From contig NZ_CP052909.1 of assembly GCF_014295415.1 (NCBI RefSeq), positions 930,001 to 994,000 of the forward strand: a stretch of DNA of 64,000 nt. Reading direction: 5' to 3'. The DNA is from Constantimarinum furrinae. Lineage in GTDB: Bacteria; Bacteroidota; Bacteroidia; Flavobacteriales; Flavobacteriaceae. Of this stretch, positions 14,827 through 18,074 are shown piece after piece; within the stretch, counting starts at the first letter, position 1, and each line of letters starts with the position of its first letter. Below the pieces are notes generated by a model, which saw only the letters and a program-made list of their open reading frames with translations, ran no database searches and had not been told where the DNA came from. The translations under genes were made by a program, and so were the position numbers.

Positions 14827-15834
14827 ATGAGTAACGAAAAAGACGCAAAATTAAAAGCCTTAAAACTAACATTAGATAAACTGGATAAGACCTATGGCAA
14901 AGGCACTGTGATGAAGATGGGCGACTCTGCCGTTCAGGAGGTAGAAGTAATCCCAACGGGATCTCTTGGTCTGGATGTAGCCCTTGGAGTGGGCGGATAT
15001 CCACGAGGAAGAGTTATAGAAATATACGGTCCCGAATCATCGGGTAAAACCACGCTAACTCTTCATGCCATAGCCGAGGCTCAAAAAAAAGGAGGAATCG
15101 CCGCATTTATTGATGCCGAGCATGCTTTCGACAGGTATTATGCCGAAAAATTGGGGGTGGATATTGAGAATCTTATCATTTCACAGCCCGATAACGGAGA
15201 GCAGGCACTGGAGATTACCGACAATCTTATTAGAAGTGGAGCCATTGACATCATAGTAATTGACTCGGTTGCCGCCTTAACGCCTAAAAGTGAGATAGAA
15301 GGCGAAATGGGAGACAGTAAAATGGGACTCCACGCAAGATTAATGTCTCAGGCATTGCGAAAATTAACCGGCTCAATAAGCAAAACGCATTGTACGGTAA
15401 TTTTTATTAATCAGCTTAGAGAGAAGATAGGAGTAATGTTTGGGAATCCTGAAACCACTACCGGAGGAAATGCTTTAAAATTCTACGCTTCGGTACGATT
15501 GGATATTAGAAGATCTACGCAAATAAAAGATACCGACAGCAATGTAAAAGGGAACAAGACCCGGGTAAAAGTAGTGAAGAATAAAGTGGCTCCACCCTTC
15601 AAAACTGCCGAATTCGACATTATGTACGGTGAAGGAATTTCTAAGGTAGGTGAAATCATCGATATAGGTGTTGATTTTGAAATCGTTAAAAAGAGCGGTT
15701 CATGGTTTAGTTATGACGACACCAAATTAGGACAAGGAAGAGACGCGGTGAAAACACTGCTAATGGACAATCCCGAGCTAATGGAAGAACTGGAGCTAAA
15801 GATCAAAGAAGCTATTGCGGCCAACAACGCATAA
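14827..15834 (+). CDS. recA: Recombinase RecA
   Basis: The 335-residue RecA ATPase, which forms filaments on single-stranded DNA, exchanges strands in homologous recombination and repair, and is needed for natural transformation. Walker A is GPESSGKT (68-75). The segment [20 protein letters not shown], the L1 region and [22 protein letters not shown] (L2) all match the family closely. The C terminus is acidic, as usual. It stands alone between its promoter and a 130-base gap before the ECF sigma gene. No intein or interruption. Confidence 0.98.
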
Positions 15835-15964
15835 CTTTGTATTGCAAACGCAACCCTTTTAGATCGTTGGTATCTACTTAACGTAGAAACCCGGTTTATT
15901 ATGGTTGCCTACTTGCAAAGTTTAGTAAGTTTTTCAACATTAAATAATATTCACGGCACTACGT

Positions 15965-16498
15965 TTGACATTAGACGAGCTCATCATACAATGTAAGAGG
16001 CAAGATGCTACAGCACAAGGAGAATTGTACAAGCGATATTCGGGTACATTATTTTCCATTTGTCTGAAGTATTCACCGAATTATGTAGAAGCAGAAGACA
16101 ATCTACAGGATTCATTTCTTACTATATTTAAGCGAATTGAGCAATATGAAGGCAAAGGCTCTTTTGAAGGCTGGATAAAACGTATCACCGTAAATACAGC
16201 CCTTCAGAAGTATCGTAAAAAACGCGACTTTGAAATAAACAACGAAGAACAAATTGAAGATGCCAATGAAGAAGTGGAGGCAGAAAACGTTCCGTTGGAT
16301 TTTTTACTGAAGATCGTCCAGGAATTGCCAGCCAGGTATCGATTGATCTTTAATATGTATGTTCTGGATGGATATACACACAAAGAAATAGGAGAATTGT
16401 TAGGTATTAGTGACGGAACGTCTAAATCTAATCTGGCAAGGGGCCGGGCGATACTAAAAGCAAAGATCGAAGCATATAACGAACAGAATAATTTATAA
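15965..16498 (+). CDS. ECF-type RNA polymerase sigma factor
   Basis: A 177-residue sigma-70 family protein of the extracytoplasmic-function group. Region 2 spans about residues 20-90 (the VEAEDNLQDSFLTIFKRI segment is typical of region 2.2) and region 4 about 110-165, with the helix-turn-helix LDGYTHKEIGELLGISDGT. The likely start is TTG at 15965; there is no ATG near the expected N terminus, and the frame is open back to a stop at 15941. Confusingly, that TTG lies inside a perfect -7 sequence, TACGTTTG (15960-15967). The next gene, 34 bases on, encodes its probable membrane anti-sigma partner. Confidence 0.92.
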   Translation: MTLDELIIQCKRQDATAQGELYKRYSGTLFSICLKYSPNYVEAEDNLQDSFLTIFKRIEQYEGKGSFEGWIKRITVNTALQKYRKKRDFEINNEEQIEDANEEVEAENVPLDFLLKIVQELPARYRLIFNMYVLDGYTHKEIGELLGISDGTSKSNLARGRAILKAKIEAYNEQNNL

Positions 16499-16532: not shown

Positions 16533-18074
16533 ATGAAAGAAAAAAAGCACATAGACGAGCTTTTTAAAGAACGCTTCCAAAACTTTGAAGCTTCCCCCTC
16601 TCCTGAGGTCTGGACTAGTATTCAGGCTAAACTCAACAAGGAGAAGAAGGAGCGCAAGGTTATTCCGCTGTGGTGGAAAGTGGGAGGTGTTGCGGCATTG
16701 CTGGCGCTTTTACTCACCATTGGCAATAGTGTTTTTGATTCTTCTGAAAAAACGAATACCCTTACCAACGAGCAGACAAACAAGTCTGTTGAAGACGGAA
16801 CGTTGAAAGAAAGCACCTTCAACGAGGATGAGATAAATGATACCGATTATGCCGTTGACACGGAAACTATAGAAGATTCCAAAGTGGATGTGCCTGAAAC
16901 TAAAGACACAAAAAAGGTTTCCAATAAAACCCCGGGTGATGCGATCTACAAAAAAGCAAATTCGGTTAAAACTGCCGTAGCTTCTGAAGAAATTAAAACC
17001 AAGAAACAATCTTCAGCTAATAACAAAGACCATTTTAAAAATGATGCTGTACTTAACACAGGTGTCGATTCTGAAACTCTGAATAAGAAAGCTAATGCCA
17101 TAGCTTCAGAAAAAAATAAGAAAGCAGAAAAAGGCCTTCCGACAGACAAAACGGAAACCCTCATTAATACGGATAAAACAATTGCGGAGACCATAGAATC
17201 TAAAGTAGCCGGCAATAAAACGGCTGAAGAAAAGACAGCTGCGGAAGAAAAAACAGAGGAAAAAAATAAAACCACTAACCAAAAATCAATTTTCGACGCC
17301 ATTGAGGAATCTAAGAAAACCGAAGAAGCCGTAGCAAAAAAATCTAAGCCGGATAATCGCTGGGATGTATCGCCTAATGTGGGGCCGGTCTACTATAACA
17401 CTTTAAGCAACGGCTCTTCCTTAGATCCTTCCTTTGCAGATAACAACAAATCCGGTGATGTGAACTTCAGTTATGGTGTGAACGTCGCCTATAATATTTC
17501 GGAGAAGTTTAGTGTGCGTACAGGAATTAACAATGTGGATCTCAGTTATAGCACTTCCGGAATTGAATTGGGTACCGGGCCGGTCTCTTCGGCATTGAAA
17601 TCGATCGATTACGGTGGAAAAAGTGTAGTGCTAACTGCAGTGGATAAAGGCGGTTTTGACACCAACATCCCCGAAAACCCCCTGGATAATATTACGCCTA
17701 AATCTACTTCGGGAGAGGCGATGATCCATCAAAATATCACGTATTATGAAGTACCGCTTGAATTAAAATATGCGCTGCTCAACAAACGATTTGGCATTAA
17801 TATGATAGGCGGCTTTAGTACATTATTTCTCGGCAACAATGACGTATCGGTGAGTGCCGGAGATTTTAGCAGTACCCTTGGAGAAGCCAACAATTTAAAT
17901 TCGGTGAGTTTTACAACAAACTTCGGATTGGGCTTTGATTACAGAATTTCCAGAATGTTTAAGTTTAATATTGAGCCTATGTTTAAATACCAGCTTAATC
18001 CATATACAGATTCGTCTGTAGGCTTTAAGCCCTATTATTTTGGGATTTACAGCGGGTTGAGTTTTAGGTTTTAG
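16533..18074 (+). CDS. Anti-sigma/outer-membrane beta-barrel fusion (dual-membrane anti-sigma type)
   Basis: A 513-residue protein with three parts. Residues 1-45 are a small charged cytoplasmic segment with the pattern FxxFExxPxPxVWxxIxxxL, the likely sigma-binding part. One membrane helix follows at about 46-65 (KVGGVAALLALLLTIG). Residues 70-270 are a long Lys/Glu/Thr-rich, low-complexity linker. Residues 275-513 form an outer-membrane beta-barrel domain with alternating strands, ending in YSGLSFRF with a terminal Phe. There is no N-terminal signal peptide. The layout matches the dual-membrane-spanning anti-sigma factors (Dma) described in Bacteroides, where sensing at the outer membrane controls an ECF sigma. 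It follows its sigma gene directly. Confidence 0.82.
   Translation: MKEKKHIDELFKERFQNFEASPSPEVWTSIQAKLNKEKKERKVIPLWWKVGGVAALLALLLTIGNSVFDSSEKTNTLTNEQTNKSVEDGTLKESTFNEDEINDTDYAVDTETIEDSKVDVPETKDTKKVSNKTPGDAIYKKANSVKTAVASEEIKTKKQSSANNKDHFKNDAVLNTGVDSETLNKKANAIASEKNKKAEKGLPTDKTETLINTDKTIAETIESKVAGNKTAEEKTAAEEKTEEKNKTTNQKSIFDAIEESKKTEEAVAKKSKPDNRWDVSPNVGPVYYNTLSNGSSLDPSFADNNKSGDVNFSYGVNVAYNISEKFSVRTGINNVDLSYSTSGIELGTGPVSSALKSIDYGGKSVVLTAVDKGGFDTNIPENPLDNITPKSTSGEAMIHQNITYYEVPLELKYALLNKRFGINMIGGFSTLFLGNNDVSVSAGDFSSTLGEANNLNSVSFTTNFGLGFDYRISRMFKFNIEPMFKYQLNPYTDSSVGFKPYYFGIYSGLSFRF

Follow-up and report, generated by a model that had tools for sequence, protein, structure and literature searches.

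A sigma/anti-sigma gene pair downstream of recA

The window, the 64,000 nt stretch of Constantimarinum furrinae DNA analysed here, carries on its forward strand recA (14827–15834; TIGR02012, E = 2.3e-170), the gene for an ECF sigma factor (15965–16498) and the gene for an anti-sigma protein with a predicted outer-membrane barrel (16533–18074), in that order. The sigma factor has 177 aa and a TTG start, and is identified by Pfam Sigma70_r2 (1.5e-15) and r4_2 (6.4e-16) and by a sigma tree, in which it groups with other anti-sigma-linked sigmas. Its ORF is separated by 34 nt from that of the anti-sigma, a protein of 513 aa with an ATG start, assigned from Pfam and AlphaFold2.

Matches to the anti-sigma were found in 37 of 60 genomes, the C. 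furrinae genome included, and the near relatives carrying the pair, among the matches listed, include Altibacter, Ulvibacter and Aequorivita. In all 30 of the loci that were fetched, again including our own, a sigma orthologue lies directly upstream; recA was detected in 23 of these, where the flanks extended just 1500 nt. An overlap between the sigma and anti-sigma genes was seen in 13 of 29 fetched loci with a computed gap. A larger set, comprising the best 80 of at least 537 confirmed matches, gave the same picture: the sigma gene is present in 79 of the 80 and recA in 79 of the 80, the exception (L086) being interrupted by a contig end. In this best-80 set the recA match ends 116–876 nt ahead of the sigma gene in 79 loci, and sigma and anti-sigma overlap in 20 of 79. 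The pairing with an ECF sigma that had originally been proposed, and the two-gene order that was to be looked for across Bacteroidota, were thus recovered with the sigma upstream in 30/30, 79/80 and, at class level, 28/29 loci. On these sequences, the position of the pair next to recA, its conserved upstream neighbour, is conserved synteny, and we claim no part for the pair in the DNA-damage response.

The start codons of the two genes differ. The sigma gene starts with TTG or GTG in 29 of the 30 fetched loci and in 79 of 79 from the best-80 set. The anti-sigma gene starts with ATG in 28/30 and 77/79 loci, a count favoured by our script, which moved anti-sigma starts by up to a few codons to reach the closest ATG.

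Predicted architecture of the anti-sigma protein

An AlphaFold2 model of the window anti-sigma was built from 79 sequences. Its N-terminal part contains two helices, at residues 7–14 and 24–38, within the predicted cytosolic segment of residues 1–45 (16533–16667). The predicted inner-membrane helix follows at residues 46–67 (16668–16733) and includes the sole segment of the protein that reaches membrane-helix hydrophobicity (19-residue mean of 2.0 from residue 50, the next best being 0.86). Forty-five residues therefore stand before the membrane helix, and the orthologues have the same layout. Residues 68–276 (16734–17360) form a charged, mostly disordered tether, predicted to be periplasmic, with one short helix at 253–262; between residues 72 and 248 the pLDDT is mostly below 50 and 38% of the residues are charged.

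The C-terminal part, residues 277–513 (17361–18071), is predicted to be an eight-stranded outer-membrane barrel. Pfam places OMP_b-brl_2 at residues 273–485 (E = 1.5e-8, above the family cut-off), and the model has eight long strands within residues 277–512, with a block pLDDT of 83–98. The top Foldseek match of the barrel was the OmpA barrel 9fzd_A (TM 0.72, by target length), and the top two ranks were both OmpA barrels; a sequence search of the PDB with the anti-sigma found no relative. A long loop, at about residues 351–395, connects the third and fourth long strands.

The order of parts put forward in the original prediction, namely a cytosolic segment, an inner-membrane helix, a charged linker and a C-terminal barrel, is thus borne out by Pfam and by the AlphaFold2 prediction. 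The boundaries given there (residues 1–45, a linker of about 200 residues and a barrel at 275–513) agree with the model, and a barrel was indeed modelled over residues 277–512 at the pLDDT given above. The fused form of anti-sigma and barrel is retained in the aligned orthologues. Among the 79 anti-sigma sequences 36 positions are invariant, including F11, P22 and W27 in the N-terminal segment; with this number of invariant positions, and with matches in 37 of 60 genomes, the observation cannot be put down to chance.

Predicted docking on the sigma factor

At locus L062 the orthologous sigma and anti-sigma genes are in frame, and we modelled them as one chain in which the stop codon was represented by one residue. 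The read-through model has a mean pLDDT of 88 and a pTM of 0.77, and in it the N-terminal anti-sigma segment docks on the sigma factor, as had been anticipated for residues 1–45 of the window protein. The N-terminal helices reach a pLDDT of 90–97 in the joined model, compared with 67–77 when the window protein was modelled on its own, a comparison between different orthologues in which the covalent linkage can itself help docking. The model contains just two strand elements, sigma residues 103–105 and anti-sigma residues 4–6, and these must therefore pair with each other.

The fold comparison bears mainly on the sigma part of the L062 model (residues 1–174) and covers only high-ranked Foldseek chains. 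The arrangement of the sigma domains resembles that of SigW bound to RsiW (Z 13.4, rmsd 4.8 over 151 residues) and of CnrH bound to CnrY (Z 11.6, rmsd 5.3 over 146), whereas ECF sigmas taken from RNA-polymerase complexes differ from the model, over both domains, by an rmsd of 20.6 to 27.3. Sigma-E/RseA and AlgU/MucA match the model in region 2 alone, and a free sigma, SigG1, is equally compact (Z 11.7, rmsd 4.5). CnrY is a short helical cytosolic inhibitor that is not known to carry a barrel. The N-terminus of the window protein is likewise a minimal helical inhibitor by prediction, to which the window system adds the barrel. From the modelling, residues 1–45 are predicted to be the sigma-binding segment.

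A candidate promoter of the sigma operon

In close relatives the gap between recA and the sigma gene contains two conserved blocks. When spacings of 14 to 20 nt were permitted, GCAAC and TCTA were found at one identical spacing upstream of the sigma gene in 65 of 79 loci (from the best 80 of at least 537). Thirty-seven of these 65 sites lie within 250 nt of the sigma gene and 28 lie about 470–690 nt upstream; in 27 family genomes the space between the distant site and the sigma gene is occupied by a lipoprotein ORF of roughly 134–166 residues. In the window the site (15850–15877, forward strand) consists of a −35-like GCAACC (15850–15855), 16 nt, and a −10-like ATCTAC (15872–15877). The fixed spacing among orthologous loci, together with the enrichment over a reversed pattern described below, makes GCAACC-N16-ATCTAC a candidate promoter of the sigma operon, reported here as new.

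Facing this site is an inverted partial copy, GTAGA...GGTTGC (15883–15908, reverse strand), read directly from the sequence, whose spacing is 2 nt shorter than that of the forward promoter. A loose regular expression found such a copy in 14 of 79 loci, a number that includes some chance matches far from the promoter; copies facing the promoter occur mainly in the close clade of Altibacter, Ulvibacter and Aequorivita type. The inverted copy could be a hairpin, a site for a regulator or a product of shared ancestry. That it serves as another promoter for this sigma is not favoured, given the 2 nt shorter spacing and the constant forward spacing in 65 loci.

Motif sites across the family and candidate targets

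Across 159 family genomes, the strict pattern GCAACC-N16-ATCTAC gave 150 matches, compared with 21 for the reversed control. In the C. furrinae genome itself there were two strict matches, one before the sigma operon and one before kdsD, and none for the reversed pattern; a looser pattern was hardly enriched there (7 matches versus 4). The motif was carried by 20 of 28 genomes with the anti-sigma, counted as such when they gave a match above 100 bits, and by 3 of 22 without it.

The 150 matches comprise 15 followed directly by the sigma gene, 27 followed by a lipoprotein gene and then sigma, 29 on the divergent recA side and directed towards trhO, and 79 others; 31 of the 150 fall inside ORFs of at least 150 residues. 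Among the 79 others, 49 lie outside ORFs of at least 120 residues, and 41 of those have an ORF within 120 nt downstream. This ORF is lipoprotein-like at 22 of the 41 sites, compared with 127 of 1021 background ORFs, which were longer and partly from the same loci; a few more plain lipoproteins among the 41 escaped the regular expression. Many of the 22 have acidic residues shortly past the cysteine. Judged from their sequences, the lipoproteins behind the motif are probably surface-exposed. A family-2 glycosyltransferase gene follows the motif in three genomes.

The gene preceded by the motif in our own genome, kdsD, belongs to the KpsF/GutQ family. As a conserved target it was rejected beyond this genome: kdsD was matched in 38 genomes, and of the 30 loci scored, against a null sample that contained true sites, only that of our own genome fell in the promoter range. 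L176, the nearest relative scored, has GCAACC in almost the corresponding position but lacks a matching −10 element.

Paralogues and relatives across the class

A second full pair of sigma and barrel anti-sigma is present in the C. furrinae genome (L031, 3022–5210; G000:C1 near 342–344 kb). It sits between genes that we named by eye as pnp-like and rpoD-like, its sigma gene starts with TTG, and no promoter of the above type was found in the 141 nt upstream of that sigma gene. The same genome also contains a split version of the system (L032, 3508–5986, reverse strand; G000:C1 near 384–386 kb), made up of a sigma gene and genes for two further proteins, one anti-sigma-like (262 residues) and the other (351 residues) beginning with what looks like a signal peptide; Pfam found no barrel in either of these two proteins. 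At the first ATG of the L032 sigma ORF, and overlapping it, is a promoter-like sequence, GCAACC-N17-GTCTA, so paralogous sigmas may share targets. By eye, comparable elements also stand upstream of related sigmas from other orders, with scores below those of the operon sites. The promoter type is therefore probably a property of the sigma group, which again allows for targets shared between paralogues.

Within the class, the family profile matched 94 of 148 genomes. In 28 of the 29 loci examined at this level, a sigma gene lies at most 76 nt upstream, whether or not the protein has a barrel. Pfam was run on 20 of the 29 proteins: 13 have a barrel (E ≤ 0.01, 12 of them above the cut-off), 2 have a type IX C-terminal domain and 5 have neither. 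Four further proteins are short, at 241–279 residues, and the remaining 5 of the 29 were outside the Pfam scan. The two with type IX domains (L351, 1495–2637, forward strand, in G279; L356, 1501–2607, forward strand, in G202) have the same N-terminal segment and helix and are sigma-linked, and they end in the type IX secretion domain CHU_C (1e-14 and 1e-9); one also has a PKD domain. From their domain content, it is possible that they are sensors of type IX secretion. A narrow search of the literature found no description of an anti-sigma with a type IX tail.

The tree of sigma factors places the recA type in a clade of its own (11 rows, support 99/99), which includes the pnp/rpoD paralogue of our genome, and the NigD-linked sigmas form a separate one (6 rows, 100/100). 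Twenty of the 53 inner branches, the deep forks included, are unsupported.

Relation to known systems

According to the available part of PMC13088901, the Dma proteins consist of an N-terminal sigma-binding part, one helix, a disordered tether and a C-terminal barrel. The proposed fit of the window protein to this layout was confirmed, in that all four parts equal those in the description, and Dma1 and Dma2 of Bacteroides thetaiotaomicron, like the window protein, have an adjacent sigma gene, for Das1 and Das2 respectively. Further marks of the Dma/Reo kind are a sigma of group ECF21 and, on loss of the anti-sigma, release of the sigma with a higher output of vesicles; we claim no such vesicle effect for the window protein. 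The window system differs from Dma/Das in that its sigma is of a separate lineage, its genome has no NigD_C protein and its upstream elements differ by eye. Dma3, in the same partial source, is a sigma fused to anti-sigma and barrel (PMC13088901). It is resembled by L385 of G328, which combines a barrel with sigma regions 2 and 4 in one 547-residue chain, and the window pair differs from it in having separate sigma and anti-sigma genes.

The EcfO/Reo system of Bacteroides fragilis and Phocaeicola vulgatus, as far as the accessible portions of PMC9308784 and PMC13114119 describe it, also has an anti-sigma reaching from the cytosol to the surface. Its regulon covers envelope stress, lipoproteins and LPS length, and the flavobacterial motif sites likewise precede lipoprotein and sugar or LPS genes. 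The lipoproteins concerned are different ones. Those of EcfO/Reo are NigD, and NigD genes are reported, within the same limits, as targets of Das1 (PMC13088901) and of EcfO (PMC9308784, PMC13114119). NigD as a flavobacterial target is not supported, since the hhalign alignment between NigD and the lipoprotein of the flavobacterial operon covers only the signal peptide, over 20 columns. Pfam found no NigD family in the three operon-lipoprotein members scanned, and the operon lipoprotein had only signal-peptide-level matches in our own genome (best E 0.04). NigD_C occurs in 9 of 149 class genomes. The family profile (A5) does find sigma-linked barrel anti-sigmas beside, and divergent from, NigD genes in G215, G249 and G304, whose family, shared by G328, we take to be Bacteroidaceae. 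The likeness to the B. thetaiotaomicron and P. vulgatus proteins themselves is one of described layout, the sequence matches coming from G215, G249, G304 and G328.

By its layout, then, the window anti-sigma is of the Dma/Reo kind; it is predicted from the models to work alike, and it belongs to a distinct flavobacterial lineage. A kind of protein known from gut Bacteroides thus appears to be common in Flavobacteriaceae, with an on-switch that, from the motif sites, points to genes for surface lipoproteins. In the literature searched, which lay mostly outside subscription journals, we found no account of a circuit of this kind from Flavobacteriaceae; the papers met there dealt with TamL and with PorA/SigP.

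A proposed model for sensing at the outer membrane

We consider it likely that the window protein is an ECF anti-sigma anchored in the inner membrane and bearing an outer-membrane barrel, which clamps the sigma until a disturbance of the outer membrane releases it onto genes with GCAACC-N16-ATCTAC. In the resting cell, the two cytosolic helices are predicted to clamp the co-encoded sigma closed, so that RNA polymerase could not use it. The TTG or GTG start of the sigma gene, set against the ATG of the anti-sigma gene, may keep the inhibitor in excess. The barrel would itself be a substrate of outer-membrane assembly, and a disturbance of the membrane or of its assembly would unseat the chain, which would be cut or pulled and so let go of the sigma. 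Once free, the sigma is predicted to transcribe its own operon from GCAACC-N16-ATCTAC, along with further targets that would be mainly genes for small lipoproteins but also some for sugars or LPS, with kdsD among them in our own genome.

The best outside support for this mechanism, by analogy, is the induction of the Reo-type pair of P. vulgatus, which the available text of PMC9308784 and PMC13114119 reports both with a toxin and with a BamA inhibitor. According to the same passages, loss of the anti-sigma, or an active sigma, lengthens the O-antigen in P. vulgatus (PMC9308784, PMC13114119). The lipoprotein and sugar or LPS genes that recur at the flavobacterial sites fit these responses.

The barrel could instead be a receptor, in which the tether is shifted, and the sigma freed, by a surface ligand such as a glycan, peptide, phage or toxin, rather than a reporter of assembly. 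The same architecture is found in Dma2, for which the authors hypothesise an unknown glycan (PMC13088901, in the part available), and the long loop at about residues 351–395 might offer a place for such a ligand. However, the barrel is eight-stranded and OmpA-like, orthologues differ in the length and sequence of the loop, and the retention of one locus across the family would suit a housekeeping signal better; we think this reading unlikely. Less probable again is routine cleavage of the protein in normal cells, which would leave the anti-sigma in the inner membrane and the barrel on its own, with no chain spanning both membranes. The split proteins of L032, of 262 and 351 residues, indicate that a divided form may work, but the fused form is kept in the aligned orthologues and no cleavage site is visible by eye. 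That the genes are chance neighbours, one for a common barrel protein whose signal-like helix stays uncleaved and the other for a sigma inhibited by some other protein, is very improbable: although the Pfam match above cut-off is only to a general family of outer-membrane barrels, the pair is kept in 30/30 and 79/80 loci (the latter from the best 80 of at least 537), 28 of 29 class-level profile matches lie behind a sigma gene, and the L062 segment docks on its sigma in the model.

If the release of sigma by outer-membrane disturbance is the right reading, much of Flavobacteriaceae carries the pair, and with it an outer-membrane-sensing sigma, at a fixed genomic place, with a readable promoter and a testable list of targets. 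A single chain that crosses the envelope and reports the state of the outer membrane would then become testable outside gut Bacteroides. More tentatively, and with rather less conviction, we suggest that Bacteroidia have a family of minimal two-helix anti-sigmas with interchangeable antennae towards the envelope. Such an anti-sigma might have no antenna, work with an outer-membrane protein from a separate gene, or carry either a fused barrel or a C-terminal signal of the PKD/type IX secretion kind. On this view the barrel form next to recA would belong to the core systems with which Flavobacteriaceae monitor the envelope; its sensor would be an assembly substrate of the outer membrane, and its sigma would act on genes for surface lipoproteins and LPS sugars as well as on a conserved peptide of 30 residues.

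This peptide, of about 30 residues and with an end like NSNCKADGG, was seen at 21 of the 29 divergent recA-side sites (for example L173, L233 and L242). It does not fit the 88-nt gap of the present window, and CKADGG did not occur in the literature searched. Variation at wobble positions suggests that the peptide is translated.
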